From NCBI GenBank assembly GCA_016927895.1, contig JAFGLT010000042.1, positions 1 through 33,014 on the forward strand: a stretch of DNA of 33,014 nucleotides. Direction: 5' to 3'. The notes beneath the pieces are model-generated. The model ran no database searches, was not told where the DNA came from, and was given only the letters and a program-made list of their open reading frames with translations. The DNA comes from Candidatus Bathyarchaeota archaeon. Lineage in GTDB: Archaea; Thermoproteota; Bathyarchaeia; Bathyarchaeales; Bathycorpusculaceae. Within the stretch, counting starts at the first letter, position 1; each line of letters starts with the position of its first letter. Shown here one piece after another: positions 9,596 to 30,129 of the stretch. Both the position numbers and the translations under genes were made by a program.

Positions 9596-10765
9596 TTATC
9601 TGGCGCATTCCTGCAGGATGGCAATTCTTTTGGCGGCTTCTATTATGCGTTCTTTCGGCTGAGTTAACGAGAATCGCACGTAGTTTTTTCCTTGTTCTCC
9701 GAATCCGACGCCAGGGGTCACCACTACCCCTGCGTTGAGCAGTTTAGCGGCAAAATCGATTGAGCTGCAGTTGCAGTTTAGCCAAACGTAAAATGTGGCT
9801 TTCGGCTTGTCACATTTGTAGCCCATCGCGCATAGGCGTTCGACCAGTATGTCGCGTCTTTCCGCGTAAATCTTGTTGTTTTCTTTAAGGAAGTCGGGTG
9901 GTTTGTCGTTTTTGTAGGTTGCTAAGGCTTTAGCGGCTACTTTTTGTATGTAAACTGATGGTCCTGAGTCGACTTGTGACTTGACTTTTGTAAGCCCGCT
10001 GATTAACTGCTTGTTGCCAACGGCGAAGGCTATGCGGTCACCCGTCATGTTGAAGGTTTTTGAGAGTGAGTGGAACTCGATTGCCACTTCGGCTGCGCCG
10101 TCGATTTCGAGGATGCTGGGTGCCTTATACCCGTCGAAGCTTATCTCCGAGTAAGCGTTGTCGTAGCAGAGGATTATGTCGTTTTCGCGTGCGAACTCCA
10201 CTGCCTGCTTAAGGAATTTCTTGTCCACCGTGGCGCTCGTCGGGTTATTCGGGTAGTTCAGAAATATCATCTTCACTTTTTCAGTGTGCACGGCGTCGAG
10301 GTCTGGTTTGAAACCGTTTTCCCGAAGCAGCGGCATCGAAACCGCCACGCCATCGTTCAGTATGGTACTAGCGTTGTTGTAAACAGGGTAACTTGGGTCA
10401 GGCACCAAAACGTGGTCGCCCGCGTTTACGAACCCCCTCGCAATGTTCGCCAAGCCCTCTTTTGAGCCTAACAGCGCAATAACTTCGTCTTGGGCCAAGT
10501 CTATGCGGAAACGTTTCTTGCACCACTCAGCAACGGCTTCCCTGAATTCGGGTTCGCCTTGGCTGAGCGAGTAATTGTGATTCTTCAGGTTCGCGGCTTC
10601 CTCTTTAAGCGCGTCCACCACCACAGGCGGCGGTGGAAGGTCGGGGTCGCCAATGCTAAGCGAGATGAGGTCTATTCCCTGCGCCTTTTTCTCTTTCATA
10701 GTTTTCTCTATTTCCGCAAAAAGATACGGTGGAAGCCTTTTCACTCTCTCAGCAAATTCAAACAT
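9596..10765 (-). CDS. dapL: LL-diaminopimelate aminotransferase
   Basis: DapL converts tetrahydrodipicolinate directly to LL-diaminopimelate with glutamate as amino donor, replacing DapD, DapC and DapE. This is a 389-residue fold-type I PLP aminotransferase. It has LSIGDPDLPPP near the N-terminus, NYPNNPTSATVD, YDNAYSEISFDG and HSLSKTFNMTGDR, in which the lysine holds PLP. The last motif reads TGDR where many relatives have TGWR, a small oddity. The ATG at 10765 (MFEFAERVKRLPPYLF) is chosen over an upstream start, since GGAG precedes it inside dapF and family members begin there. It is the last gene of the lysine operon, seven bases after dapF. Context makes DapL far more likely than a general aspartate aminotransferase. 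Confidence 0.92.
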   Translation of the reverse strand: MFEFAERVKRLPPYLFAEIEKTMKEKKAQGIDLISLSIGDPDLPPPPVVVDALKEEAANLKNHNYSLSQGEPEFREAVAEWCKKRFRIDLAQDEVIALLGSKEGLANIARGFVNAGDHVLVPDPSYPVYNNASTILNDGVAVSMPLLRENGFKPDLDAVHTEKVKMIFLNYPNNPTSATVDKKFLKQAVEFARENDIILCYDNAYSEISFDGYKAPSILEIDGAAEVAIEFHSLSKTFNMTGDRIAFAVGNKQLISGLTKVKSQVDSGPSVYIQKVAAKALATYKNDKPPDFLKENNKIYAERRDILVERLCAMGYKCDKPKATFYVWLNCNCSSIDFAAKLLNAGVVVTPGVGFGEQGKNYVRFSLTQPKERIIEAAKRIAILQECAR

Positions 10766-10772
10766 TTCGTTA

Positions 10773-11609
10773 TCACACGTTCTCCTTAAACAGTGTTCCC
10801 TCAAAAACTTTCTCTGCAGCACCATTCATAAGCAAGCTGTCTGCATACTCAACTTCTAAATCGCCACCCAGCAGATGAACAAGAACTTTACAGCCGAGCT
10901 TTTCCAGCAGATTTCCAGCGACTACTGTGGCACAGGCGCCTGTACCACAAGCAAGGGTTTCCCCACAACCGCGCTCCCACACCCGCACTTTAACCTCGTT
11001 CTCACCCAAAACCTGAGCAAACTCCACGTTTGTTCTTTTAGGGAAAAGCTGATGGTTCTCAATTTTAGAGCCTACACGCTCCACTGGAAAATCGTCTACC
11101 GAGTCAACGAATATGACGCAGTGGGGATTGCCAACCGACAAGCATGTTGCCCTGTAACCGTCTCCGTCAACTTTTAAATCCTCGTTTATGAATTTGCCTT
11201 GACCCGCCATCGGAATCTTGCTTCTCTCCAGCTCGGGCACGCCCATGTCAACCATAACCGATTGAACCGCGTCGTTTTCAACAGTTAACCACGTTCGCTT
11301 GTTTCCAGCCAGCGTTTCCACAACTACCTCGCTTTTTCGGGCGATGTTGTTTTCGTAGCAGTACTTGGCGAAGCAGCGGATGCCGTTGCCGCACATTTCA
11401 GCTTCGCTTCCATCAGCGTTGAAAATCCTCATTTTCACTTCCGCTACGGTTGAGTTTGACACGAAGAGAACGCCGTCCGCGCCTACTGAGAACCGTCGCT
11501 TACATAGCTTCACCGCTAACTCAGACGCTTCGCGGTCGCTTATTTTCTCGCCTCTGTTGTCGATTACAACGTAGTCGTTGCCTAAGCCGTGCATCTTCCA
11601 AAACTTCAT
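10773..11609 (-). CDS. dapF: Diaminopimelate epimerase
   Basis: DapF converts LL- to meso-diaminopimelate using two cysteines and no cofactor. Both catalytic motifs are present: EMCGNGIRCFA and CGETLACGTGAC. The conserved opening KMHGLGNDYVVID and the loop GNPHCVIFV also fit. The length of about 278 residues is normal. The ATG at 11609 (MKFWKMHGLG) matches the family start; a GTG at 11618 overlapping the lysA stop is possible and would add three residues. It is translated in the lysine operon between lysA and dapL. Confidence 0.95.
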   Translation of the reverse strand: MKFWKMHGLGNDYVVIDNRGEKISDREASELAVKLCKRRFSVGADGVLFVSNSTVAEVKMRIFNADGSEAEMCGNGIRCFAKYCYENNIARKSEVVVETLAGNKRTWLTVENDAVQSVMVDMGVPELERSKIPMAGQGKFINEDLKVDGDGYRATCLSVGNPHCVIFVDSVDDFPVERVGSKIENHQLFPKRTNVEFAQVLGENEVKVRVWERGCGETLACGTGACATVVAGNLLEKLGCKVLVHLLGGDLEVEYADSLLMNGAAEKVFEGTLFKENV

Positions 11610-11614
11610 AGCGT

Positions 11615-12904
11615 TCACTCTGCCACTCGCTGCCCCGACAACAAATCGTCCAGCGTTTCGCGTTTCCTAATCACTGCGCACTTGCCATCTTTAACCATGA
11701 CTTCCGCGGCTCGTGGTCTAGCGTTGTACTGTGAACTCATGGCATAACCGTACGCGCCAGCGTTCAGAACCGCAAGCAAATCACCTTCATCCACATTCGG
11801 TAGCCGCCTGTCTCTGGCTAGCAGGTCGCCTGACTCGCAAACTGGGCCAGCCACATCGTACGTTTCTTCCTCTGGGGAGTCCAGCTTGCTCGCTACGAGC
11901 ACGTGATGGTGCGAGCCGTACATGGTGGGTCTCACTAACGTGTTGAATCCTGCGTCTACGCCGACAAACCGTTTGAAAGGCGTAACTTTCACCGTGTTCA
12001 CGCGGGTTAACAGGATGCTGGCATCGCAGACTAAGTAGCGTCCAGGCTCTACACAGAAGAACGGCTCGCCCAGGTCGTACTCTTCAACTCTGTTTTTGAA
12101 CAGGGACAGCACTTTCTCAGAGAAAGCAACCAAATCCACCGGTTTGTCTTCTGGCTTGTAGGGCACGCCGATTCCGCCGCCCATATCCACAAACTCGAAG
12201 CTTACCCCGGCTTCGTCGTGAACCCGTTTGGCTACGCTTAGAAGCTTGTCGAGCGCCAAAACGAAGGGGTCAACGTCTAGAACGCCTGAGCCTACGTGCA
12301 TGTGTATGCCGAACCGTTCCACGCCTGAATCCTTCGCTTTCTTGTACGCGTTTACGGCGTCGCTTTCCCATAACCCAAACTTTGTGTTTTCGCCTGCTGT
12401 GATGCAGTGGTCATGGTGGCCTGCGCCTATCTCAGGGTTAACCCTAACAGACAGCACTTCAGGCACTTTAATCTTGAGTAGCCTGTCTAACTGTGATAGG
12501 GAGTCAGCGTTCACGGTTATGTCGGAGTCGGCGAGAAACTTTAGCTCGTCGTTTCTGACGCTTGTTCCCGTGAATAAGATGCGCTCTGGCGTGAACCCCG
12601 TGGTTAATGCCATGAAAACTTCGCCTGGGCTGACCGCGTCCAAGTATGCGCCTTCTGTTTCCAGTGTTTTCAGCACTGATAGGTTCGAGTTTGCCTTCGC
12701 GGCGTAGTAGACTCTGATTTTTTCGTAGTTACGGGTTAATGCTTTGTGGAGGTTCCTGTAGTTGTCTCTGATTCTGCTCTCGCTGGTCACGTATAACGGC
12801 GTGTCGAAAGCTTCAGCTAGTTCTTCAGCGGAAACTCCGTCGAAGTAAAGCTTGCCGCCTCGATTCTCTAATGGCCCGTTGAGCCACGGCTGTATTGGAG
12901 TCAT
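11615..12904 (-). CDS. lysA: Diaminopimelate decarboxylase
   Basis: LysA makes lysine from meso-diaminopimelate, the last step of the pathway. The 429-residue PLP enzyme belongs to the alanine-racemase-fold (fold-type III) decarboxylases. K70 in YYAAKANSN binds PLP. HMHVGSGVLD, GGGIGVPY, EPGRYLV (phosphate and substrate contacts) and GPVCESGD (the active-site cysteine) follow in order. GAYGYAMSSQYNARPR is near the C-terminus. The ATG at 12904 has GAGG eight to nine bases upstream; the open frame continues into the end of asd but has no better start. The gap of 41 bases to asd has no sign of a promoter or terminator. Confidence 0.96.
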   Translation of the reverse strand: MTPIQPWLNGPLENRGGKLYFDGVSAEELAEAFDTPLYVTSESRIRDNYRNLHKALTRNYEKIRVYYAAKANSNLSVLKTLETEGAYLDAVSPGEVFMALTTGFTPERILFTGTSVRNDELKFLADSDITVNADSLSQLDRLLKIKVPEVLSVRVNPEIGAGHHDHCITAGENTKFGLWESDAVNAYKKAKDSGVERFGIHMHVGSGVLDVDPFVLALDKLLSVAKRVHDEAGVSFEFVDMGGGIGVPYKPEDKPVDLVAFSEKVLSLFKNRVEEYDLGEPFFCVEPGRYLVCDASILLTRVNTVKVTPFKRFVGVDAGFNTLVRPTMYGSHHHVLVASKLDSPEEETYDVAGPVCESGDLLARDRRLPNVDEGDLLAVLNAGAYGYAMSSQYNARPRAAEVMVKDGKCAVIRKRETLDDLLSGQRVAE

Positions 12905-12945
12905 AACTGTTTCCTCTTTGAAGATTGTTGGTAACGTCTGCCGGT

Positions 12946-14004
12946 TTAGGCAATTCCCTTCGTTACCATAAGCTCGGCGCTGAGTATACCTGCTCCTGCG
13001 GCTCCACGGATAGTGTTGTGTCCCAAGCACAGGTACTTAGCCGTCATTATAGGGTCTTTTCGGATTCTGCCGACCACGACACTCATGCCTTTGCCTTCGT
13101 CACGGTCGTAGCGAGGTTGAGGTCTACTCGGTTCCTTTCGTACGACTATTGGGTTTTCTGGGGCAGAGGGAAGATTCAGTTTTTGCGGTTCGCCTCTAAA
13201 CTGGATGAAAGCCTCTTCGATTTCCTCCACTGTGGGGTTGTCGTCAAGCTTCACGAAGACTGATTCTAAGTGTCCGTCTATGACGTTGACTCTGTGACAG
13301 CTTGAGCTGAGCATGAAGTCTGCTGGGCATATCCTGTTGCCGTCGAATGAGCCCAGTATCTTCTGGGGTTCGCTCTCCATTTTATCCTCTTCACCAGAGA
13401 TGAATGGAACAACATTGTCTAAGATGTCCAGTGAAGAGACACCTGGGTATCCTGCTCCGCTTAGCGCTTGCATGGTTGAAACCATAACTTGGCTGAGACC
13501 GAACTTCATAAGCGGCTTCAACGTGATTGCTAGTTGAATTGTGCTGCAGTTAGGGTCCGTTGAGATGAAGCCCTTCCAGCCTCTTGCTTTCCTTTGGATT
13601 GGAATAAGCGCTGCGTGGTCAGGGTTCACTTCCGGTATTATAAGCGGCACATCAGGGTCCATGCGGTGCGCGCTTGCCTTGCTGAAGACTGGGTACAACG
13701 CTGCGAAATCTGTTTCCACTGGTCCTGCCAAGCCGCCTGGCAATGCTGAGAAGACAAAATCCACGTTGCCTGCCTTCTCCACTGACTCGACGTCGCAGTT
13801 TACCACGTTCATTTCAGCAATTTCCTTAGGCAGGTTCGTCTGCATGGTCCAGTTGCAGGCGCCCTTATACTTTTTGCCTGCGGATTTTTCCGAAGCGGCG
13901 AGCACTTCGATTTGGAACCATGGGTGTCCTTGCAACAGCTGAATGAAGCGTTGTCCAACGGCTCCCGTTGCGCCTAATATGGCTACTTTACGATGTGACG
14001 ACAT
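12946..14004 (-). CDS. asd: Aspartate-semialdehyde dehydrogenase
   Basis: Asd reduces aspartyl phosphate with NADPH to aspartate semialdehyde, the branch point to lysine and to homoserine. The 352-residue length and motifs suit the archaeal/fungal-type family: AILGATGAVGQRF (nucleotide-binding loop), STDPNCSTIQL (catalytic cysteine), ALSGAGYPGVSSLD and SSCHRVNVIDGH, which has the catalytic histidine. The gene start overlaps the end of the aspartokinase gene by 17 bases, so the two successive enzymes are translationally coupled. It also has to feed the homoserine branch encoded at the right edge, since no second asd is seen. Confidence 0.95.
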   Translation of the reverse strand: MSSHRKVAILGATGAVGQRFIQLLQGHPWFQIEVLAASEKSAGKKYKGACNWTMQTNLPKEIAEMNVVNCDVESVEKAGNVDFVFSALPGGLAGPVETDFAALYPVFSKASAHRMDPDVPLIIPEVNPDHAALIPIQRKARGWKGFISTDPNCSTIQLAITLKPLMKFGLSQVMVSTMQALSGAGYPGVSSLDILDNVVPFISGEEDKMESEPQKILGSFDGNRICPADFMLSSSCHRVNVIDGHLESVFVKLDDNPTVEEIEEAFIQFRGEPQKLNLPSAPENPIVVRKEPSRPQPRYDRDEGKGMSVVVGRIRKDPIMTAKYLCLGHNTIRGAAGAGILSAELMVTKGIA

Positions 14005-15169
14005 TACTTATCGCTTCCTTTGCTCTTTTGAGTTGGTTTTCTTCGATAAAAACGTTAATGGTCGCTTTGCTGGTAGTGACCTCAATTATGTTGATGCCTT
14101 TGTGGCTTAGCGCCGTGCTTAAGGCTGCGACTCCGCCGGGTGACTCGATGAATGTGGCGTGTCTTACCTGAAGCATTGCCACGTTTTCCCTGTGGCTAAC
14201 CGCTTTGAAGCCTGGTATGCTGTGTAGTTTGCGTATGACTTCGGTTATGTTGCCGTCTGAAGTGAACACGGTGATTGAGCGGCTTCCTGAGCTGACGCCG
14301 TATATGGGTTTTTGGCTAAGCGAGGAGAAGACTTCGCTGATGTTTTCTGCGTTTACCTTGCAGACCACGTTGATGGCAATCAAATCGTTGCGGATATGTA
14401 CTTCAGATGAGTTGCTGTCTAAAGCGCCTGTAATTTCCGTGCCTCCAACGGCAAGGTTACCGGAAGAGAAGTCCACTACCCTGAGCATCTGGTTTGGCTG
14501 CTTGTACCTTAAAGCTTCTGGTTTCACGATTTTCGCGCCGCCTTGAGCTAAATCAAACATCTCACGTATATCCAGCTTGTTAAGCGCTCTGGCTTCAGAC
14601 ACGATTTTAGGGTCCGCTGAGAGGACTCCACTCGTTTCCTTGACAAGTATTACTTCATCCGCATCTAAGCATTTAGCAAGAACCAAAGCGGTCGTGTCGC
14701 TTCCACCCCTTCCCATAACGGTTATTCTACCGTTCAGGTCCTTTCCTACGAAACCGCACATAACGGGTATGGTTTCGCCCAACAACGGAGCTAAGAATTT
14801 TCTTGCAAGCTCAGTGGTTTTCTCCATATCTGGTCTCGCGTTGCGAAAGTTGGAGTCAGTTATCAATGGCCAGTTGTCGTTGCATGGGTCGAAAAGTTCC
14901 GCTTTTGCACCTTGTGTTCTCAGGGCGGAGCAGAAGAATCGGGCGCTGACTCGTTCGCCCATGGATATCAGTTCCGCGTAGTCTGCGTCGCTTACGTCGC
15001 CTATTTGCATGGTTGTGTTGAGCAAACTGTCGGTTGTTTTGCCCATGGCTGAGACTACGACTATTATTTCCTTGTAATTAGCGTTTGCAACCATTTTGGC
15101 TGCCTGTGAGACTTTTTCCCCTGTAGCAAGGTCGGCGCCTCCAAACTTGATGACTACCCTGTTACCCAC
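13988..15169 (-). CDS. Aspartate kinase of the lysine operon
   Basis: Aspartokinase phosphorylates aspartate to start the pathway. The 393 residues include an amino-acid kinase domain (to about 245) and two ACT domains (about 265-390), which usually bind the end product. Kinase motifs are VMGRGGSDTTALVLA and KETSGVLSADPKIV. The N-terminal signature is odd: it reads IKFGGADLATG, where aspartokinases normally have KFGGTS. The threonine and serine at the substrate site are replaced by alanine and aspartate. The paralogue at 30830 keeps KFGGTSVATG. Position between dapB and asd still makes aspartate the expected substrate. The ACT domains suggest feedback by lysine, which is inference. Confidence 0.92.
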   Translation of the reverse strand: MGNRVVIKFGGADLATGEKVSQAAKMVANANYKEIIVVVSAMGKTTDSLLNTTMQIGDVSDADYAELISMGERVSARFFCSALRTQGAKAELFDPCNDNWPLITDSNFRNARPDMEKTTELARKFLAPLLGETIPVMCGFVGKDLNGRITVMGRGGSDTTALVLAKCLDADEVILVKETSGVLSADPKIVSEARALNKLDIREMFDLAQGGAKIVKPEALRYKQPNQMLRVVDFSSGNLAVGGTEITGALDSNSSEVHIRNDLIAINVVCKVNAENISEVFSSLSQKPIYGVSSGSRSITVFTSDGNITEVIRKLHSIPGFKAVSHRENVAMLQVRHATFIESPGGVAALSTALSHKGINIIEVTTSKATINVFIEENQLKRAKEAISNVVTS

Positions 15170-15184
15170 AGTTTTTCACCTGAA

Positions 15185-15979
15185 TTAGGATAAACCCAGC
15201 ACGTCTTCCATGCTGAAAATTCTTGGCTGCGCTTGGCTGCTTATCCATTCCGCCGCGTATACTGCGCCTTGTGCAAGGGCACTTCGTGAGAAAGCAACAT
15301 GTTCTATCTTGAGCATTTCGTGGGGTCCTGCAACTATGATGTCATGGATGCCCGGAACTCCGCCTGCACGTAACGCAGCGATTTCAAGTTCTTCAGGTTG
15401 CCTCGGGCTCATGCCTTCCCTTCCGTACACCGTTCGACTGTAGCCGCGCACGTCCGCGATTATTTGGCCAAGTTTTTTGGCGGTTCCACTAGGCGCATCC
15501 TTCTTGCCCGTATGATGGATTTCGCTTATGCTGAAAGTGTATTCCTGAGGAAATGCCTTCAATGCTTGGGCTAATTTGAATAGGATATTGACGCCTACGC
15601 TGAAGTTTGGTGCAAACACAGCTGGAACCTTACCCTCAACGGCCTCGCGTGTCTGACGGTTTTGCTCATCGGTGAAGCCCGTTGTGCCCAGAACCACGCG
15701 CTTGCCCAATGCGGCAACAGCGGGAACATTTTGCACTTCAGCTGCTGGCGTGGTGAAAGTCATGTACACGTCTGCATCTTTGCAGGCTTCGCTGATTCTG
15801 TCGGAACCTATAATTACCGTGTCGAAGTCGCTGATTCCTAGTTCGCGCAGGTTTTTTCCTACGCAGGGGTTACCTGAGGCTTCGACTGCACCGGTTACTT
15901 GGATTCCTTTGGCTGCGGCTTCGCGGATGACAGCGTTGCCCATTCTACCTGCGGCGCCTGCCACACACAGCTTAAGCAT
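15185..15979 (-). CDS. dapB: 4-hydroxy-tetrahydrodipicolinate reductase
   Basis: DapB reduces the product of DapA to tetrahydrodipicolinate with NAD(P)H. The 264-residue protein has the Rossmann motif VAGAAGRMG (residues 6-14), TFTTPAAE, GTTGF, APNFSVGVN and the catalytic signature SEIHHTGKKDAPSGTA. The C-terminal domain has the conserved IHDIIVAGPHEMLKIEH. It overlaps the end of dapA by eight bases and stands 15 bases before the aspartokinase gene, firmly inside the operon. Confidence 0.96.
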   Translation of the reverse strand: MLKLCVAGAAGRMGNAVIREAAAKGIQVTGAVEASGNPCVGKNLRELGISDFDTVIIGSDRISEACKDADVYMTFTTPAAEVQNVPAVAALGKRVVLGTTGFTDEQNRQTREAVEGKVPAVFAPNFSVGVNILFKLAQALKAFPQEYTFSISEIHHTGKKDAPSGTAKKLGQIIADVRGYSRTVYGREGMSPRQPEELEIAALRAGGVPGIHDIIVAGPHEMLKIEHVAFSRSALAQGAVYAAEWISSQAQPRIFSMEDVLGLS

Positions 15980-17009
15980 AAGTCAATCCCTGCCAATACT
16001 GTTCTTTGTATAAGCGTTCGTTTAGGTCTACGTCGAAGAAGTCTGCTATGGGCTGAAGTATGGATGGGTTGGTTTCGTAGACTTTTCGGGCGTTGGCTAG
16101 CACAATTTCGAGTCCGGTGCGAGTCATTTTTCCAAGCGGTTGTCTGCATGGACCTGAAGGCATGCCTAGAACGTTCATTAGTGTTTTGAATGCGAGGGGG
16201 TTTCGTGCTTTGCAGGTTACGAGCCCGAAGGATGTTTGCTCTTGTGTCTTAACGGTTACCAAGTCGAAGAGCGGTTTCAGGGCTGCGTAGATCCGTTTGG
16301 CTTCTTCTGTTCTGTTAGCAAGTAAGGCTTGAGTTAAGTTTTGCACTGTTCGTGGGGCGACGTTAGAGGCAACTGAGATGACTCCTGCCGCGTTGATGTC
16401 GGGCGCGGTCATCATGGCGAAGGTTTTGTCATCGTCTCCTGAGAGAATTGCGAGGTCGTTTCCGCAGAGTTTGCGGGTTAAGCGCATGTTGTCTAGGTCG
16501 CCTGTGGCTTCTTTCACACAGCTCACGTTCGGGTATTGCTGGTGGAGAACCGCTAGGTCTTGAGGGTAGAGTTGGGTGCCTGTTCTGCCCGGAATTACGT
16601 AGGGGATTACTTGGACTTCTGGGAAACGCTGCGCGACGGGTTCCACGTATTCTCTGCGTATCTCCAACGAGCTTGGTCCATTGTAGTATGGGTCAACAAG
16701 CAAAACACATTCCACGCCCATATGTGCAGCGTGTTCTGTGCCTTCCAAGGTTTCTTGGGTGCTGTTGCTTCCTGTTCCGGCTATGGTTAAGCCTTTGCTT
16801 CCCGTGTGCTCGTAAACTTTCTCGATTACTTTGTTGTGTTCGTCCCAATCTAGGGTTGGGCTTTCGCCTGTGGTGCCGACGGCGAGTATGCCGCTGACGC
16901 CTTCTCTTATTTGGAATTCGACTAACCTGCGTAACCCTTCATAGTCCACTTGATTGTCTGGTGTCATGGGGGTTACCAGTGCAGTGTAGCAACCACTAAA
17001 TCTTACCAT
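15972..17009 (-). CDS. dapA: 4-hydroxy-tetrahydrodipicolinate synthase (dihydrodipicolinate synthase family)
   Basis: DapA condenses pyruvate with aspartate semialdehyde, the committed step to lysine. The protein is a class I aldolase barrel with GTTGES (45-50), the catalytic tyrosine in IPYVIPGRTG (Y137) and the Schiff-base lysine in SCVKEATGD (K166). At 345 residues it is about 50 longer than typical bacterial DapA. The extra part is at the C-terminus after residue 290 (for example SILQPIADFFDVDLNERL). The ATG at 17009 is chosen for the family start MVRFSGCYTALVTPM and a GAGG upstream; the longer open frame upstream is a low-complexity hydrophobic run over the promoter. It is the first gene of the lysine operon. 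DapA family members vary in substrate, but the neighbours settle it. Confidence 0.93.
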   Translation of the reverse strand: MVRFSGCYTALVTPMTPDNQVDYEGLRRLVEFQIREGVSGILAVGTTGESPTLDWDEHNKVIEKVYEHTGSKGLTIAGTGSNSTQETLEGTEHAAHMGVECVLLVDPYYNGPSSLEIRREYVEPVAQRFPEVQVIPYVIPGRTGTQLYPQDLAVLHQQYPNVSCVKEATGDLDNMRLTRKLCGNDLAILSGDDDKTFAMMTAPDINAAGVISVASNVAPRTVQNLTQALLANRTEEAKRIYAALKPLFDLVTVKTQEQTSFGLVTCKARNPLAFKTLMNVLGMPSGPCRQPLGKMTRTGLEIVLANARKVYETNPSILQPIADFFDVDLNERLYKEQYWQGLTYA

Positions 17010-17050
17010 TTTACATGCCTCTTTTAAGCGGTAACAGTTGGCGGCGGCAT

Positions 17051-17060
17051 TATTTAAATT
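17051..17060 (-). promoter_or_regulatory. TATA box of the dapA-dapL lysine operon
   Basis: The minus strand reads AATTTAAATA 42-51 bases before the dapA ATG, preceded by a purine-rich GGAA. This is a good TATA/BRE-like pair and would start transcription near 17027. No other convincing promoter is seen inside the seven-gene operon. Confidence 0.55.
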
Positions 17061-17229
17061 TTCCGTTTTAAGTAAATATATTACGAATAACGCACTAGGA
17101 ATAAGCATGAACTGAGTTAATCTTGGAAATACCCGCGTTTTTCGCATCAAACCCAGCAGAAAAAGCTGCACACCCAAAACAAACAAAAGCTCCAAAAACC
17201 CCTCACAGAAAACAAGAAAAATAATCATA

Positions 17230-20231: not shown

Positions 20232-20642
20232 TTAAGCAGTAGCTTTTTTCCACTCGTTCATTAAGGTCTCGTAGAGTTTATCGTCTTCTTTTATGGTTTC
20301 GTACCATCCTAGGTTGCGCGCGATTTTCTGGGCGATTAAATGGTAGCATAGGTGGATTTTTTTGTCTAACACGCGGAAGTAGAAGTCGTCGCACATGCAG
20401 AATTCAGCTTCAGGCATTATCAAGTAATCGCGTTCTCTTCCAATGACTATCCAGACGGTTCTGCCGCTTGGCTTGAAAACGTACTTTTTCACTCGGTTTT
20501 CTTTCAGGGTGCTGAGCGCCTTAGTGAATCTCTGCCCGAAAAGCTCGTAAAGCGCAGTCAAGCTTTTGCCCGACAGCTTGCCCTCTGCTTTTGCTTCACG
20601 GCAAATAGCGTTTAACGCGTCGATTTCCGAGTTGTCATTCAT
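20232..20642 (-). CDS. SWIM zinc-finger domain protein
   Basis: The 136-residue protein contains C82-x-C84-x14-C99-x-H101 (in FCMCDDFYFRVLDKKIHLCYHL), the CxCx(n)CxH pattern of SWIM fingers. These fingers bind DNA or proteins and occur in Shu2/Sws1-type recombination factors and in transposases. The N-terminal half is helical and the region VKKYVFKPSGRTVWIVIGRERDYLI forms the sheet that leads into the finger. Small free-standing archaeal proteins of this type exist. A link to recombination is family knowledge applied by inference, supported weakly by the RPA gene 1 kb away. The ATG has no strong ribosome site. Confidence 0.75.
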   Translation of the reverse strand: MNDNSEIDALNAICREAKAEGKLSGKSLTALYELFGQRFTKALSTLKENRVKKYVFKPSGRTVWIVIGRERDYLIMPEAEFCMCDDFYFRVLDKKIHLCYHLIAQKIARNLGWYETIKEDDKLYETLMNEWKKATA

Positions 20643-21533: not shown

Positions 21534-23267
21534 GTGAAGAGAGCTTTAGCGGTCATCATGTTCATAGTTTTCTCAGTGGCTATTCTTTTGCCATTTTCTC
21601 TCATAACTCCAACTGTTATGGCTCAGGATAGCTATACTATACAACGTGTTGACCATGAAGTGGAGGTTATGTATTCTGGACACACGGTCATCCGCGATAC
21701 GATAACGATAAGCGGACAATTAACCGGCGGGTTCTTAATCGGTTTCCCGTACAAGTACGGCGCCTACGTCCTCAAAGGCTTAGCTTATGACGAAGACAAC
21801 AACGTTTTCCCCTTGAGCCTCGGCGTGCAATTAGCAGAAACTAATTTTTACGGCGCTAAAGTAAGTTTTACTGAAGGAGCGCCTCAAGTTTTCACGGTTG
21901 TCTTTATTCTTTCGAATAGTCTTCTAACTCAAGAATCAGCTGGAACCTTATTCACTCTCGATTTTCCAGCCTACCCTAGCTTAACGAAAGAGATTGCCTA
22001 CTGCGACGTCGACCTTGTTCTCCCTGGGACTCCTTCGGTACTAACAGTGACTATCGACAATGAAGAAGTAACTGCAACCACCTTCGCTAAGTCCAACTTG
22101 CCTGCATTAACTTATTCCCCAGCATCTGCCACGTTCTCAATAACCAGTGGAAATGTTCAGATACTCACTATAAAAGAGCTGGACCGTCAAATCACAATAA
22201 ACCCCGCAGGAAACACTCTAGCTTATGACAGTTATAGGCTTACAAACGACTCGCCCAGCAGCATGGGTTCTCTGAAAATAGGTGTGCCTCTTGAAGCTTC
22301 AAACCTTGTCGTGAGAGATGAATTCGGTAGAACCCTGACAACCGGCGCCCTAACTAGTAGCGGCAACACACGTTTCTACAATCTAACGTTAATATCTCAC
22401 ATAGGCGGTGGTTCATCCACCACTTTGACTGCTGAATATACTTTACCCAGCGTCTCTTCTGCAGCTCCCTTTACATTAACTTTTGACCTTTTTCCCGAAT
22501 TTGACTACTACGTTGAGGCAGCCAAGGTCACCTTTGTTCCTCCTGAAGGGGCAAGGTTTCTAACACCAACGCTATCAGAAATTGATTCCTCTACAACCCT
22601 TATCAGGGAAACCTTTCAGGAAACCCTCTCAATCAGCAGAGACGGCGTTAGCAAAGTAGACTCAGCTATTATTTCCGAAAGCGTTCAAGTTACGTACGAT
22701 TACAGTCCTCTGTGGCTTTCTTTCCGACCCGCGGTATGGGTTTGGCTTCTAGCAGTCATTGGATCTGTGGTTGTGATTGTCTGGAAAAGACCCAAGACCT
22801 CCGCCCCCATGCAAATCGCAACAACATCAGAAGCCTACATACAACTCAGTTCCGAACAAGTCAGAGCTTTCACTGAAGCATACGATGAGAAAAGCAGACT
22901 AAACTCAGAGTTAAAGAACCTCGAAATACGGGCTCAGAAAGGCAAGATTCCGAGGCGCCGATACAAAGTTCAAAAGGGAACATTAGAAGTCCGCCTTGAC
23001 AACATTTCCAAGAACATAACTGACCTGAAAAAGACATTCCGCAGCGCAGGCGGCAACTATGCAAATCTGGTGCGGCAACTTGACGTTGCAGAAACAGAAC
23101 TTTTTGAAGTTGAAGCAAAAACGAGGAATATTGACGTTCGCCACAGAAAAGGTGCACTGCCTTTGGACGCGTACAAAAAGGCACAAGCGGATTACCAGCG
23201 GCGAAAAGAGAAAGCTGAGGCAACAATCAACGGAATCCTATTAAGACTACGTGAGGAAACCCGCTAA
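21534..23267 (+). CDS. Secreted, single-span membrane protein with coiled-coil tail, resembling ribophorin I (Ost1)
   Basis: The 577-residue protein has a signal peptide (1-30, ending TVMA before QDSY) and an extracytoplasmic beta-rich region of about 370 residues. One membrane helix follows (about 399-417, closed by WKRPK), then a cytoplasmic coiled coil of about 130 residues. Length, membrane position and coiled-coil tail match eukaryotic ribophorin I, a non-catalytic subunit of oligosaccharyltransferase. From memory, several short motifs also line up: VVRDEFGR (259-266) with VYYRDEIGN, EYTLPS (301-306) with GYNLPS, and VPPEGA (335-340) with LPEGA. Translation starts at a GTG with AGGTGA six bases ahead. 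It is transcribed alone. Homology is proposed, not proven; the safe statement is an anchored surface protein of unknown function. Confidence 0.7.
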   Translation: MKRALAVIMFIVFSVAILLPFSLITPTVMAQDSYTIQRVDHEVEVMYSGHTVIRDTITISGQLTGGFLIGFPYKYGAYVLKGLAYDEDNNVFPLSLGVQLAETNFYGAKVSFTEGAPQVFTVVFILSNSLLTQESAGTLFTLDFPAYPSLTKEIAYCDVDLVLPGTPSVLTVTIDNEEVTATTFAKSNLPALTYSPASATFSITSGNVQILTIKELDRQITINPAGNTLAYDSYRLTNDSPSSMGSLKIGVPLEASNLVVRDEFGRTLTTGALTSSGNTRFYNLTLISHIGGGSSTTLTAEYTLPSVSSAAPFTLTFDLFPEFDYYVEAAKVTFVPPEGARFLTPTLSEIDSSTTLIRETFQETLSISRDGVSKVDSAIISESVQVTYDYSPLWLSFRPAVWVWLLAVIGSVVVIVWKRPKTSAPMQIATTSEAYIQLSSEQVRAFTEAYDEKSRLNSELKNLEIRAQKGKIPRRRYKVQKGTLEVRLDNISKNITDLKKTFRSAGGNYANLVRQLDVAETELFEVEAKTRNIDVRHRKGALPLDAYKKAQADYQRRKEKAEATINGILLRLREETR

Positions 23268-24723: not shown

Positions 24724-24753
24724 CACATCTCTTTTAGGGGGGTGCAAAAGACG

Positions 24754-25932
24754 ATGAGCATAGCGCTTCTTTATGAACGTTCAGAAACCGATGAAACAGG
24801 CATAAAACTCACTGCCCAAGACATGGGTATAGACCTGACTTTCATCCCGTTTCGGAAAATCGCCCTCACCGTAAGCAAAAACGGTTTCACCGCAAAAACC
24901 AAAGGCAAAGACTACACTGGCACATTCAAAGACGTCGCCGTAGTGCTGAACAGAGCCCAAAGCAAAAACCGGCGGCTCCAAGCTGGCTACCTCATGGAAA
25001 TGCTCGGCAAAAAAACCATAAACTCCAGCCAAATAGAATTTACTTGCTACAGCAAATTACGAACCCTGCTGCACTTCTGGACGGAAGGCCTTCCTATCCC
25101 CAAAACTGTTTACGTCCCCTGCAACGCAACCGATACTCTGAAAAACGGCAAAGTTATCCACAACGAAAAAGACATAGCCGACCTGCTGCAGGAAGAGATA
25201 GCCCTCGACCAAGGCATCGTTGTAAAACCCGACGCTGGCACCCACGGAAAAGGTATGATGCTCTCCAAAAACCGCGACCAACTCGTTGCTAGCATCCAAG
25301 AAACTAAACCGTCAATAATAAACCCCGTAGGCGTCACCGCTCAAGAAGTCGTAGAAAAATGGTTTTACGACCTACGCATAATAGCGTATAAAGAAAAAGG
25401 AAAACCCGTTGTCTGCCACCCAGTAGCCCTAGCCCGAGGCGGCTTCAAAGACTTCCGAACCAACACTTACTTAGGCAACACGGTTTTCGACGCCAAAATT
25501 CCCTCGCACATCCAAGAGTTAGCCGCGAAATGCGGCGAAGCCCTCGGCAAAGACTCTGAAGCTTGGCTGTTCGCGTTAGACGCCATGATAGACGTAGGCG
25601 AAAACAAAACCGTGAGCGACACGGAACTGCAGTCAGAGCTTGAAAAGACAGCCGCGGAGTTTGAAAAAGTGCAAAAAGTCAAGCAGGATGAAAACCGCCT
25701 CCGGGACTTCCCAAACTGGAACACCAAACTTGAAGCCGCGTTCCAAATTTACATGAGCACCAAGCCTTACAAAAAAGTCAAAAGCATAATAGACGAAAGC
25801 ATAGAAAAAAACAAGAACAAAGTGGTCTTCCACGAAGCCAACAGCTGCCCCGAGTTCTGGGAACACACACGGCTAATAGCTGGCTTAAACGTGGCAGTAC
25901 CCCTCTTGAAAGGAGCTCAAAGCCTAATCTAA
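24754..25932 (+). CDS. lysX: LysX/ArgX-family LysW-substrate ligase (ATP-grasp) with insertion
   Basis: LysX and ArgX use ATP to join aminoadipate or glutamate to the LysW C-terminus. This 392-residue RimK-like ATP-grasp protein keeps VVLNRAQSKNRRL, NSSQIEFTCYSKLRTLLHFW, VVKPDAGTHGKGM (ATP-binding), VVEKWFYDLRIIA and the metal-binding ends ALDAMID and HEANSCPEF. It is over 100 residues longer than Thermus and Sulfolobus LysX (about 280). Roughly 70 of the extra residues are inserted between ALDAMID (to 280) and FHEANS (from 359); these are charged and helical. The C-terminal motif differs from the usual EVNHTMEF. The ATG at 24754 follows GGGGGTG; a GTG at 24742 is less likely. Substrate choice cannot be read from the sequence. 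Confidence 0.85.
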   Translation: MSIALLYERSETDETGIKLTAQDMGIDLTFIPFRKIALTVSKNGFTAKTKGKDYTGTFKDVAVVLNRAQSKNRRLQAGYLMEMLGKKTINSSQIEFTCYSKLRTLLHFWTEGLPIPKTVYVPCNATDTLKNGKVIHNEKDIADLLQEEIALDQGIVVKPDAGTHGKGMMLSKNRDQLVASIQETKPSIINPVGVTAQEVVEKWFYDLRIIAYKEKGKPVVCHPVALARGGFKDFRTNTYLGNTVFDAKIPSHIQELAAKCGEALGKDSEAWLFALDAMIDVGENKTVSDTELQSELEKTAAEFEKVQKVKQDENRLRDFPNWNTKLEAAFQIYMSTKPYKKVKSIIDESIEKNKNKVVFHEANSCPEFWEHTRLIAGLNVAVPLLKGAQSLI

Positions 25933-25962
25933 CTCAAGTTAAAATTAAAGGTGAAAATGAAA

Positions 25963-27015
25963 ATGAAAATTGGAATAATCGGCGGAACAGGGTACGTAGG
26001 CGGAGAACTCCTGCGCCTGCTACTGCTACATCCTCAAGTAGAGGTCACAATGGTAACCTCCCGCCAGACCATAGGAGAATACGCCTTCAACGTACATCCA
26101 AACCTCCGTGGCATCACCCAGCTAAAATTCGTTCCCATGGACATCGGTGAACTTCAGAAAAACTGCGATTTAGTTTTCTCCGCCACACCGCATGGAGGCG
26201 CCGTAAACCTCGTTCCAAAACTCCTAGATGCTGGATTAAAAGTAATCGACATGAGCGCGGATTTCCGCCTCAAAAACCCCGATGACTACGAGACATGGTA
26301 CGGGTGGAAACACACTCACCCTGAACTGCTCAAGGAAGCAGCGTACGGAATGCCTGAGTTGCACCGTGACGAAATCAAAAATGCGCGCCTAGTCGCGTGT
26401 CCAGGCTGCATGGCATCCGCCGCCATCTTCGCTTTGGTTCCTATCGTCAAAACAGGCTTGGTTGACACAAAGCACATAGTTGCTGACCTCAAAGTCGGTA
26501 GCAGCGGAGGCGGTAGCAAACCAACTGCGGCTTCGCATCATCCTGAACGGTTCGGCGGCGTAAGACCCTACAAGGTCGTAATGCACCGCCACATAGGTGA
26601 AGTCGAACAGGAACTCAGCGCTTTTACAACTGACCCTGTCAAGGTCTCGTTTACTCCTCACGCTGTCAACATGGTCAGAGGCATACTCGCAACTGTCCAC
26701 GCTTTCCCCAAGCAACCCTTAACTAACAAAGACGTCTGGAAAGCCCTTCGCAGCACGTACGAAGGCGAACCCTTCATTCGCTTCGTCAAGTACGTTAAAG
26801 GACCATACCAGCTGCCCGACCCAAAAGTTACACTGGGCACCAACTACTGCGACATAGGCTTCGAAATCGACAATTACGCCAAGCGGCTTCTCATGTTCGC
26901 GGCTATCGACAATATGGTTAAAGGCGCTTCAGGTCAAGGCGTCCAATGCCTGAACATTATGATGGGCATAGACGAAACCACGGGTCTCAAAAGCACAGGC
27001 TTCCACCCGATGTGA
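25963..27015 (+). CDS. lysY: LysY/ArgC: LysW-aminoadipate/glutamate-6(5)-phosphate reductase
   Basis: The enzyme reduces the LysW-bound acyl phosphate to the semialdehyde with NADPH. The 350-residue protein has the Rossmann loop IGIIGGTGYVGGELLRLL, SATPHGGA, ADFRLKNPDDYETWYG, the catalytic cysteine C149 in ACPGCMASAAI, and HHPERFGGVRPYKVVMHRH. It belongs to the ArgC family, and its larger size and LysW context place it with the carrier-dependent branch. Three nested starts exist (GTG 25951, ATG 25957, ATG 25963); the last is chosen for its eight-base distance from AAAGGTGA and the family start MKIGIIGG. It is 30 bases after lysX. Confidence 0.95.
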   Translation: MKIGIIGGTGYVGGELLRLLLLHPQVEVTMVTSRQTIGEYAFNVHPNLRGITQLKFVPMDIGELQKNCDLVFSATPHGGAVNLVPKLLDAGLKVIDMSADFRLKNPDDYETWYGWKHTHPELLKEAAYGMPELHRDEIKNARLVACPGCMASAAIFALVPIVKTGLVDTKHIVADLKVGSSGGGSKPTAASHHPERFGGVRPYKVVMHRHIGEVEQELSAFTTDPVKVSFTPHAVNMVRGILATVHAFPKQPLTNKDVWKALRSTYEGEPFIRFVKYVKGPYQLPDPKVTLGTNYCDIGFEIDNYAKRLLMFAAIDNMVKGASGQGVQCLNIMMGIDETTGLKSTGFHPM

Positions 27016-27021
27016 CTTGCC

Positions 27022-27831
27022 ATGTTGTTAGTAATTAAAATGGGCGGGAGCATACTCAAAGAAGGCGCTTCCTCAGAGCTTGTCTCCGACTTGAAAACGC
27101 TGGCTGAAGAGCACAAGCTTGTTCTTGTGCACGGAGGAGGTGCAGAAGTTACCGAAACAGCCGCTAAACTGGGCAAAGAGCAGAAGTTCATTGTTTCTCC
27201 TCAAGGCTTCAGAAGCCGCTATACCGACAAGGAAACCATGGAAATCTTCACTATGGTTATGGCGGGGAAAATCAACAAGCAAATAGTCTCGGCGTTGCAA
27301 AGCCAAGGTATACCCGCCGTAGGTTTGTCTGGTTTAGACGGCGCGCTCTTGAAAGCTGAAAGAAAGAAACGTTTAATTATTGTTGATGAACGCGGACGGA
27401 AAAAGGTAATTGATGGCGGCTACACCGGCAAAATCAACGAAGTTAAAGTGGACTTGCTGGGTCTTCTGCTTGAGAAGGCCTACGTGCCAGTCGTGACGCC
27501 CATAGCCACAAGTGAAGAGTTTGAACCTTTAAACGTGGACGGCGACCGAACAGCCGCCGTGGTTGCAGGTGCCCTCAAAGCAGACCGTCTAATCCTACTG
27601 ACGGACGTCGAAGGATTACTGATGAAAGGCAAACTTGTTCCGAAAATAACTGCTACGGAAGCGGAAGACGTCCTCTCCAGCATCGGGAAGGGCATGAGCA
27701 CCAAAGTTCACGCGGCTTTAGAAGCGCTGAATCAAGGCGTCAAAGAAGTCTTGGTAACCTCGGGTGTTAAACGACGGCCCATATCATCCACTCTCAACCA
27801 TGAATCAGGTACGGTGATTACAAATGAGTGA
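27022..27831 (+). CDS. lysZ: LysZ/ArgB: LysW-aminoadipate/glutamate kinase
   Basis: The amino-acid kinase phosphorylates the side-chain carboxylate of the LysW-bound substrate. The 269-residue protein has KMGGSIL (6-12), VLVHGGGAEVTETA (glycine-rich substrate loop), QGFRSRYTDKETMEIF, the segment VIDGGYTGKINEVKV, LNVDGDRTAAVVAGALKAD and LTDVEGLL. The YTGK segment stands where LysZ-type kinases contact the carrier. The start is six bases after lysY; the stop overlaps lysJ by eight bases. Confidence 0.95.
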   Translation: MLLVIKMGGSILKEGASSELVSDLKTLAEEHKLVLVHGGGAEVTETAAKLGKEQKFIVSPQGFRSRYTDKETMEIFTMVMAGKINKQIVSALQSQGIPAVGLSGLDGALLKAERKKRLIIVDERGRKKVIDGGYTGKINEVKVDLLGLLLEKAYVPVVTPIATSEEFEPLNVDGDRTAAVVAGALKADRLILLTDVEGLLMKGKLVPKITATEAEDVLSSIGKGMSTKVHAALEALNQGVKEVLVTSGVKRRPISSTLNHESGTVITNE

Positions 27832-29008
27832 GTACGACATAATCAGCTTCGAAAACCGTTTGATGGCAAACGTTTTCGGCAAGCGCCCACTTGTGATAAC
27901 ACGCGGCAAAGGCGCATTAGTCTGGGATGTAAAAGGCAAAGAATACGTGGACTGCACAGGTAGCTACGGAGTCGCCTTGCTAGGGCACTCGCATCCGAAA
28001 GTGGTGGAAGCCATATGCAAACAAGCTGAAACCCTCATTTCTTGCCACGCAAGCCTTTACAACAATAAACGAACAGAGTTTCTGCAAAAGCTCATGAGCA
28101 TAACCCCGATGGGGTTGAACAAAGCTTTTCTATCAAACAGTGGAGCCGAATCCGTTGAGTGCGCCATAAAGGTGGCTCGAAAATTCACTGGCAAACCCGA
28201 GATAATCGCGGTGATGGGCGGCTATCACGGAAAAACCATGGGCGCACTGTCTGCAACTTGGGACAAAAAATACCGTGCCCCGTTCCAGCCTCTGGTTCCC
28301 GAGTTCAAACACGTTCCACCAGACAACCTTGAAAAGCTAGCTGAAGCTATAACGGAAAAGACTGCCGCCGTGCTTCTCGAGCCAATTCGCGGCGAAGGAG
28401 GCATACGCGTTCCACCCGAAGATTTTCTCCCCGGTGTCAGAGAGCTTTGCGATGAAAAGAATGTTCTCTTGATTTTGGACGAGGTGCAGACGAGCTTCGG
28501 GCGGACTGGTAAAATGTTTGGATGTGACCATTGGTGTGTTACTCCAGACGTTATGTGCTTGGCTAAACCGTTTGCAGGAGGCTTACCCATCGGCATAACG
28601 GTCGCCAAAGAAGAAATCATGTCCTCCTTCAAGATTGGTGAGCACTCAACAACTTTCAGCGGGAGTCCTCTGGTTTGCGCAGCTGGTTGCGCCGCCATTG
28701 ACGTGCTGGTGAAAGATAAACTTGCAGAAAGAGCCGAGAGAATAGGTTGCTACTTCAAGGGCAAAATGGAGGAACTTCAAGCAAAATACAACATCGTGAA
28801 GGAGGTTCGCGGTTTAGGTTTAATGCTAGGCATGGAGTTCCGCTATGATGTCCGCAACATTATACTGAAAACCATGGAAAAGGGCTTGCTTGTCTTGGAC
28901 GCAGGCAGAAACGTTGTGCGGTTTCTACCGCCCTTGGTCATCGAGAAAGAGCAAATTGACAAAGCCGTAGCTGTTCTTGACAAAGTAATAGGAGAAGAAG
29001 AAAAATGA
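27824..29008 (+). CDS. lysJ: LysJ/ArgD: LysW-lysine/ornithine aminotransferase
   Basis: This PLP enzyme converts the LysW-bound semialdehyde to the amine (LysW-lysine or LysW-ornithine) with glutamate as donor. The 394-residue class III aminotransferase shows GSYGVALLGHSHP, SNSGAESVECAIKVAR (phosphate site), GGYHGKTMGALS, LLILDEVQTSFGRTG (D219) and CLAKPFAGGLPIG with the PLP lysine K248. The usual LAKALAGG reads LAKPFAGG here. It overlaps the preceding and following genes by eight and four bases, so the cluster is tightly coupled. Confidence 0.95.
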   Translation: MSEYDIISFENRLMANVFGKRPLVITRGKGALVWDVKGKEYVDCTGSYGVALLGHSHPKVVEAICKQAETLISCHASLYNNKRTEFLQKLMSITPMGLNKAFLSNSGAESVECAIKVARKFTGKPEIIAVMGGYHGKTMGALSATWDKKYRAPFQPLVPEFKHVPPDNLEKLAEAITEKTAAVLLEPIRGEGGIRVPPEDFLPGVRELCDEKNVLLILDEVQTSFGRTGKMFGCDHWCVTPDVMCLAKPFAGGLPIGITVAKEEIMSSFKIGEHSTTFSGSPLVCAAGCAAIDVLVKDKLAERAERIGCYFKGKMEELQAKYNIVKEVRGLGLMLGMEFRYDVRNIILKTMEKGLLVLDAGRNVVRFLPPLVIEKEQIDKAVAVLDKVIGEEEK

Positions 29009-30129
29009 GCGACCAAGCCGTGCAGTTGCTAACTAACTTGCTTGGTATTTACAGCCCGTCAGGTAAAGAGGAAGCAATCTCAGATTTTATCGTTGAAGAA
29101 ATGACGAAACTAGGCTTCAAAGTACGAAAAGACTGTATCGGAAACGTCATCGGCGAAATCGGAGACGGCGAACCTACCATACTCTTATGCGGTCACATGG
29201 ACACCGTTGTTGGGCATATTCCACTGCGCGTTGAAAAAGGGAAGATATACGCCCGCGGCGCCGTGGATGCCAAAGGACCGCTGGCAGCTATGATTACAGC
29301 CGCAGCTGCGGTGGTGCAAGAAGTCGATTTCCACGCGAAAATTGTGGTTGCCAGCGTTGTTGAAGAAGAAGCTACCAGCAGAGGGGTAAAGCACTTGATG
29401 AAAGACGGAATTTCAGCCGACTACGCTATATTCGGTGAGCCAAGCGGCGTCGGAAACATTACAATCGGTTATAAGGGTAACTTGCACATCAAGGTAACGT
29501 GCAAAACTGAGACGGGTCATTCTTCTACGCCGTGGCTTTACGAGAACGCCCTTGAAAAAGGGTTCGAAATTTGGCTGCAAATCAAAGATTCCCTTACGCC
29601 TGTGGAGAAGCAGCAAAGCCCCTTTTACGCGGTAACCGCTTGCTTAACTAAAGTAATCGGAGGAAGAGCGAACTCTGTGATTCCTTTCGAAAGCGAAATA
29701 CACATCGACCTCAGGGTTCCTCCCCCGCTTACGGCAAATGAAGTTTTCAATAACGCTAAAAAAATAATTGAGCAGTACGATGCTGACAACCCGAAAGTCA
29801 AGGTGAACGTATCTATCGAGGATTCGAACGAGCCTTTTGAAGTAGACAAAAGCTCGCCTCTCGTGAAAGCCTTGTCCTCTTCCATCCGAAAAGTGCGGGG
29901 TAAGCCAGCGGTGCTTCTGCGAAAGACTGGGACTGGTGACATGAACATCCTTGGCAGGGCTATGAACGCGCCTATAGTCACCTATGGACCCGGAGACTCT
30001 CACCTAGATCACACAAAAGACGAACACATCGTCATAAGCGAGTACTTAGACGGCATACAAGTTTACAAGGAAACCCTCCTGAAACTAACTGAACTGCACA
30101 AAAACAAGAAAAATAGAAGCACCCACTAA
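29005..30129 (+). CDS. lysK: LysK/ArgE: LysW-lysine/ornithine hydrolase
   Basis: LysK releases the free amino acid from LysW and regenerates the carrier. The 374-residue M20-family metallohydrolase has LLCGHMDTVVG (H64 and D66), ARGAVDAKGPLAAM (bridging D88), SVVEEEATSRGVK (catalytic and metal glutamates at about 120-122), and FGEPSG, DLRVPP and late TGTGDMN and HLDHTKDEH. The ATG overlaps the lysJ stop by four bases (ATGA). It closes the cluster. Confidence 0.94.
   Translation: MSDQAVQLLTNLLGIYSPSGKEEAISDFIVEEMTKLGFKVRKDCIGNVIGEIGDGEPTILLCGHMDTVVGHIPLRVEKGKIYARGAVDAKGPLAAMITAAAAVVQEVDFHAKIVVASVVEEEATSRGVKHLMKDGISADYAIFGEPSGVGNITIGYKGNLHIKVTCKTETGHSSTPWLYENALEKGFEIWLQIKDSLTPVEKQQSPFYAVTACLTKVIGGRANSVIPFESEIHIDLRVPPPLTANEVFNNAKKIIEQYDADNPKVKVNVSIEDSNEPFEVDKSSPLVKALSSSIRKVRGKPAVLLRKTGTGDMNILGRAMNAPIVTYGPGDSHLDHTKDEHIVISEYLDGIQVYKETLLKLTELHKNKKNRSTH

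Follow-up and report, generated by a model that had tools for sequence, protein, structure and literature searches.

A full-length homologue of ribophorin I (Ost1) in a Bathyarchaeial genome and in many families of its phylum

The window, the whole stretch of 33,014 nucleotides that was analysed, is the entire contig C42 (JAFGLT010000042.1) of a Candidatus Bathyarchaeota genome (GCA_016927895.1; 119 contigs, 1.69 Mb, completeness 93%). On its forward strand it carries a gene for a homologue of ribophorin I (RPN1 or OST1 in human, Ost1 in yeast), a non-catalytic subunit of the oligosaccharyltransferase (OST). In human, ribophorin I tethers the glycosylating enzyme of the secretory pathway to ribosomes. 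The features of the gene are listed below with the residues to which they correspond.

21534..23267, forward strand: ribophorin I/Ost1 homologue, 577 amino acids, GTG start (open reading frame, profiles, AlphaFold2 model, Foldseek)
21534..21626, forward strand: signal peptide, residues 1-31 with an approximate cleavage site (hydropathy highest at about 3-29; model helix 2-23, with a pLDDT dip at 21-30)
21627..22706, forward strand: extracytoplasmic beta domains, residues 32-391 (AlphaFold2 secondary structure; Foldseek to human and yeast OST1)
22245..22775, forward strand: stretch matching Pfam PF04597 (Ribophorin_I), residues 238-414, profile positions 251-433 of 437 (hmmscan)
22314..22331, forward strand: RDEFGR motif, residue 261 (human RDEIGN, 294; alignment)
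22437..22451, forward strand: YTLPS motif, residue 302, or 301-306 with the preceding E (human YNLPS, 334; alignment)
22539..22553, forward strand: PPEGA motif, residue 336 (human LPEGA, 374; alignment)
22707..22784, forward strand: transmembrane helix, residues 392-417, with the family-conserved LWxSFRPTLW at its entry (alignment, hydropathy, model)
22851..23261, forward strand: predicted cytoplasmic basic four-helix bundle, residues 440-576 (profile and model compared with 8whn)

Only two membrane-type peaks were found in the protein by hydropathy (19-residue mean), one at about residues 3-29 (up to 2.8) and the other at 399-417 (2.3). The ectodomain (29-398) is acidic, with 20 K/R and 39 D/E, and the tail (418-577) is basic, with 35 K/R and 22 D/E and a net charge of +13, which is also the family median. 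A preliminary description, made from the sequence alone, had given this layout as a signal peptide, an ectodomain and a helix at 399-417 in 577 residues, and both hydropathy and the AlphaFold2 model bear it out. The two methods agree on a signal peptide, an external domain and a single membrane helix, and the probable orientation is that of a type I membrane protein. The same description called the tail a coiled coil; in the model it is a four-helix bundle, with helices predicted at 440-468, 474-505, 508-538 and 544-576.

Two further stretches of the window, 9596-17228 on the reverse strand and 24742-30129 on the forward strand, hold most genes of the diaminopimelate route to lysine (dapA, dapB, aspartokinase, asd, lysA, dapF, aminotransferase), a near-complete set, together with an apparent LysW/ArgW-type cluster (LysX-like ATP-grasp, LysY/ArgC, LysZ/ArgB, aminotransferase, M20 peptidase). 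At 20232-20642 on the reverse strand lies the gene for a 136-amino-acid protein with no significant Pfam match, whose CxC...CxxH spacing (FCMCDDFYFR...HLCYHLIA) resembles a SWIM-type zinc finger.

Searched on its own with hmmscan, the window protein matched PF04597 with an E value of 1.8e-5 and 24.5 bits, 0.5 bit below the curated cutoff of 25. As a single sequence it also gave a weak match through its tail to PDB entry 8whn, a Ribophorin 1 superfamily protein (E=0.0012). Of its relatives, 36 of 44 matched PF04597 individually, the best at 4.2e-13 and several above the cutoff. A profile of the 44 homologues was compared with the PDB and found human OST1 at 1.8e-17 and 8whn at 1.4e-13, with no other entry below E=1. 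When the profile was extended to 46 representatives across the phylum, human OST1 was matched at 5e-37 over residues 8-253 and 273-607 (its last residue), 8whn at 1.4e-22 and yeast Ost1 at 3.1e-14. NCBIfam returned only coiled-coil noise for the window protein. A whole-genome family search with PF04597 gave no match, though hmmscan of the protein did; this first pass was too coarse for the OST1 family, and its negatives are therefore weak.

Three short motifs named in the preliminary description turned out to be true alignment columns with human OST1, in which they read RDEIGN, YNLPS and LPEGA. The two proteins thus have in common RDE(F/I)G, Y(T/N)LPS and (P/L)PEGA, spaced by 41 and 34 residues in the window protein and by 40 and 40 in the human one. 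All 44 relatives share P337 and G339, and nearly all share E338 and A340, which argues that the three motifs did not arise by chance.

The predicted fold leads to the same family. An AlphaFold2 model was built from 68 sequences (the window protein and related loci) and reached a mean pLDDT of 91, with beta domains at 33-389, a helix at 392-417, a low-confidence linker at 422-435 and four helices within 440-576. Ranks 1-8 of a Foldseek search against the PDB were taken by human OST1 (8b6l, 8pn9, 6s7o, 6s7t) and yeast Ost1 (6ezn, 8agb, 7oci, 6c26), at E values of 7e-27 to 1e-15, and the first unrelated match followed at 5e-7. The predicted ectodomain therefore aligns with human and yeast OST1 ahead of all other solved structures. 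For the OST1 entries without the bundle, the target-normalised TM score was 0.61-0.65 over ectodomain and helix, with an rmsd of 5.4-6.8 Å. For those with the bundle the whole-chain rmsd was about 30 Å, although the pieces align; this was read as a different angle between the two membrane sides, which the model would place across the low-confidence linker.

Human ribophorin I (607 amino acids; 6s7o_E, 8b6l_O) has the same order of signal peptide, beta domains, helix and bundle in the same proportions, as had been proposed from the sequence, and the profile match runs over its full length. Identity over the structural alignment is about 15%, and the angle of the bundle differs in the model. Yeast Ost1 (476 amino acids; 6c26, 6ezn, 8agb) is alike in ectodomain and helix (target-normalised TM about 0.62); however, it stops after the membrane helix and lacks the bundle, and the window protein is nearer to the human layout. 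Homology to ribophorin I had been offered earlier as an inference, and sequence profiles and fold now agree on it. Neither of the two outcomes named beforehand as fatal to the idea, a missing PF04597 match and an ectodomain model that does not superpose on Ost1, came about. The window protein is almost certainly a homologue of ribophorin I/Ost1 over its full length.

Because coiled coils produce spurious matches, the tail (434-577) was analysed separately. A profile of the tail alone matched 8whn at E=5.1e-14, whereas tropomyosin, the strongest of the generic coiled coils, reached 1.2e-4. A model of the tail alone (pLDDT 91.7) had 8whn as its sole Foldseek match below 0.001, with a TM score of 0.79 and an rmsd of 2.7 Å; human OST1 in 8b6l aligned with it at a TM score of 0.60 and a non-significant E value of 1.2. 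The tail was also found to be the best conserved part of the protein: mean column identity was 62% in the tail taken by itself, compared with 36% over the entire protein in a similar set. The crystal structure 8WHN shows the cytoplasmic part of Lokiarchaeal OST1. In pull-downs human ribosomes were retained by this domain and by the corresponding human one, whereas the ectodomain did not retain them (PMC11417166). In human RPN1 the cytosolic domain contacts the 60S subunit (PMC6929149). The Lokiarchaeal protein (Ca. Prometheoarchaeum syntrophicum MK-D1, WP_147663064.1) has the same four-helix bundle and keeps RxxxGxL...Y in its last hairpin; identity within the bundle is 17%, the comparison covering the cytoplasmic domain. 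MK-D1 also has TRAP subunits, which are reported to be restricted to Asgards and eukaryotes (PMC11417166). On profile and model, the predicted bundle at 440-576 corresponds to the domain through which human and Lokiarchaeal OST1 bind ribosomes.

Three loci of one archaeal family (L179, L181 and L184 of family f20) encode shorter homologues of about 415-430 amino acids, which end shortly past the membrane helix and have no bundle. These proteins (about 430 amino acids) are trimmed like yeast Ost1, and represent either an independent trimming or an ancestral short form.

Homologues are widely conserved among related archaea. In a sample reaching from genus to order a homologue was found in 54 of 61 genomes, including 35 of the 37 good near-complete ones, in an open frame of similar length; the named relatives are almost all recorded as Candidatus Bathyarchaeota, in keeping with the Bathyarchaeia-like TACK genome supposed in the preliminary description. 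Across the phylum 398 genomes were searched with a broad profile; about 178 of them, from about 46 of some 66 sampled families, had matches at E<1e-20. These counts were made by hand, and weaker matches, mostly short or coiled-coil noise, were ignored. No strong match was found in the sampled g27 genomes and part of g12, both in the window's own family and with good assemblies, nor, in the 398-genome survey, in families such as f19, f26 and f32. The Bathyarchaeota bin106 chromosome has three OST1-like genes (L091, L113, L128), two of which encode longer proteins (643-695 amino acids); they are possible paralogues.

Both partners that the preliminary description had named, STT3 and an OST3-like gene, were found in the window's genome. 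There is one STT3 (753 amino acids), on contig C74, and the OST3-family gene lies on contig C48:

C48, L207:5841-6281, reverse strand: OST3/6-family membrane protein of 146 amino acids, closest to human OSTC/DC2 (PF04756 and profile)

This protein matched PF04756 with 27.8 bits (cutoff 27) in its membrane half, and the thioredoxin domain is absent. A nine-member profile built on it found human OSTC/DC2 at 5.2e-8 and MagT1 at 0.18. Human OSTC/DC2 (149 amino acids, 6s7o_H) likewise consists of the membrane domain only, with no thioredoxin domain, and the archaeal protein is either an OSTC orthologue or an ancestral thioredoxin-less OST3. In relatives the OSTC-like gene adjoins STT3 or lies a few kb from it, between genes for CDP-archaeol synthase and topoisomerase; of 81 genomes compared, 57 had it no more than 10 kb from STT3, and in seven the distance was at most 0.65 kb. 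In the window's assembly the two genes are on separate contigs. DAD1 (PF02109) and OST5 (PF05251) gave no match in the window's own genome, a weak negative because the whole-genome search was coarse, and control genomes also gave none. Among Asgard archaea, OST48 and ribophorin II are reported to be restricted to Heimdallarchaeia (PMC10307638).

Contig C48 also encodes a membrane protein, P0002 (L158:6742-8373, forward strand), with an N-terminal beta domain weakly like that of OST1 and no Pfam match. Cys and Ala alternate in its C-terminal tail (GCVCACAACACACACVSCACACAGGG), and G344 encodes a similar protein (L160:4202-5821). P0002 gave a second, weak match in the genome (C48:26858-27268) and was rejected as a second OST1, as it does not match PF04597 and the likeness is a single stretch of beta domain.

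Hand counts over the 398 genomes were used to compare the occurrence of these genes. Of the 178 genomes with a strong OST1 match, 172 also had a match for STT3, as did 183 of the 220 others. OST1 and the OSTC-like gene occurred together in 135 genomes, OST1 only in 43, the OSTC-like gene only in 23 and neither in 197; by family the figures were 37, 9, 4 and 16. Kinship among the genomes means that they are not independent, and the small P values of this co-occurrence overstate its strength. In the window's own family several genomes keep STT3 and have no strong OST1 match, so STT3 can persist without OST1. Two near-complete genomes (G024 and G315) have a strong OST1 match and an OSTC-like gene with no STT3 match, which reflects either assembly gaps or the use of OST1 without STT3.

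The OST1 gene itself is not adjacent to STT3 or other glycosylation genes in the window, and its neighbourhood in relatives is mixed. Conserved neighbours there are genes for a T2SSF protein, a protein of histone-deacetylase fold and DUF2095, with a GT4 glycosyltransferase in 22 loci; in distant families they are radical-SAM/TRAM and other housekeeping genes. Operon context was therefore set aside as a clue to function, as no conserved neighbour accounts for the OST1 gene.

From these data a different role can be proposed for a true Ost1 homologue, that of an anchor for the ribosome or Sec channel, or of a chaperone for secreted chains, rather than of a subunit of the glycosylation enzyme. Such a role would fit the tail being the best conserved part, the two near-complete genomes with OST1 and no STT3 match, and the absence of linkage between the OST1 and STT3 genes. 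However, the beta domains, which in eukaryotes belong to the OST complex, retain even the PEGA and DE(F/I)G motifs, and OST1 is rarely found without STT3 and is co-distributed with the OSTC-like protein, which is itself linked to STT3. A role outside the enzyme is therefore considered unlikely, and that of a ribosome-linked OST subunit, by analogy with the human and Lokiarchaeal proteins, is likely.

The gene could also have been acquired recently from Asgard archaea or eukaryotes, and would then be uninformative on ancestry. The first report of prokaryotic Ost1 did come from Asgard archaea (PMC10307638). Identity to the window protein, however, drops stepwise with kinship: it is about 70% at the level of the genus, 35-58% at that of the family, about 24-36% at order level, 20-23% at class level and 14-23% in the rest of the phylum. 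Together with strong matches in about 46 families, this comparison within the phylum points to old vertical descent there and makes a recent transfer very improbable. A generic archaeal surface protein with a convergent or low-complexity likeness to ribophorin I, as might be suspected since such three-part proteins are common and coiled coils weakly match many PDB entries (tropomyosin at 1e-4, CdvA), is refuted and retains next to no probability, as the PF04597 match (238-414) excludes the tail and the OST1 matches exceed the coiled-coil and beta-domain background by many orders in both sequence and fold.

Taken jointly, the best explanation, which we hold with good confidence, is that the window encodes an archaeal orthologue (or close homologue) of ribophorin I/Ost1 which acts as a non-catalytic OST subunit. 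As a type I membrane protein, it would most likely pack its outward beta domains on the STT3/AglB enzyme, with its single helix crossing the membrane beside STT3. The basic cytoplasmic bundle would most likely dock on the large ribosomal subunit, and docking would hold the enzyme next to the Sec channel so that sequons could be glycosylated while emerging. That the protein joins STT3 in a complex, binds ribosomes and acts during translation is proposed by analogy with its human and Lokiarchaeal counterparts. Mammalian OST-A is connected to Sec61 by DC2/OSTC (PMC6929149). Because DC2/OSTC has this role and RPN1 contacts the ribosome, the archaeal set of STT3, OST1 and OSTC-like protein may, judged from its parts, resemble the translocon-bound form of OST. 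OSTC has been found only in vertebrates, according to one review (PMC6929149).

In 2016 no credible archaeal homologues of the non-catalytic OST subunits were found (PMC4973528). Ost1 and Ost3 were later reported in Asgards, and more subunits in 2023 (PMC10307638). In 2024 a single sentence, based on database searches, placed OST1 and OST3/6 in eukaryotes, TACK and Asgard archaea (PMC11417166). The preliminary description was right to propose a ribophorin I homologue outside the Asgards, but the claim is not wholly new, as TACK OST1 had been announced. In the openly available papers searched, no description was found of TACK OST1 itself, its bundle, its OSTC-like partner or its wide distribution. 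The window protein is a well-supported addition to a known family, in a group where that family was already announced in passing.

Non-catalytic OST subunits and their tether to the ribosome are commonly regarded as belonging to eukaryotes or Asgards. The occurrence of a full-length ribophorin I in nearly all genomes sampled from the Bathyarchaeial order, and in many families elsewhere in the phylum, points to a pre-Asgard origin of this part of the translocon. As the gene is widespread in the phylum, the OST1 component of this 'eukaryotic' machine probably predates the Asgard–eukaryote lineage. More tentatively, at somewhat less than even odds, TACK archaea may broadly encode a minimal OST-A-like enzyme of STT3, bundle-bearing ribophorin I and an OSTC/DC2-like protein. 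If this enzyme worked as in mammals, a physical link of glycosylation with the ribosome and Sec channel would predate the separation of the Asgard–eukaryote lineage from other archaea, and OSTC would be the ancestral, thioredoxin-less form of OST3. The question can thereby be put to the test in simpler archaea, whose complex may consist of three subunits only. Natural variants, with STT3 alone, OST1 without the bundle, or OST1 together with the OSTC-like protein, are available for asking what each subunit contributes.
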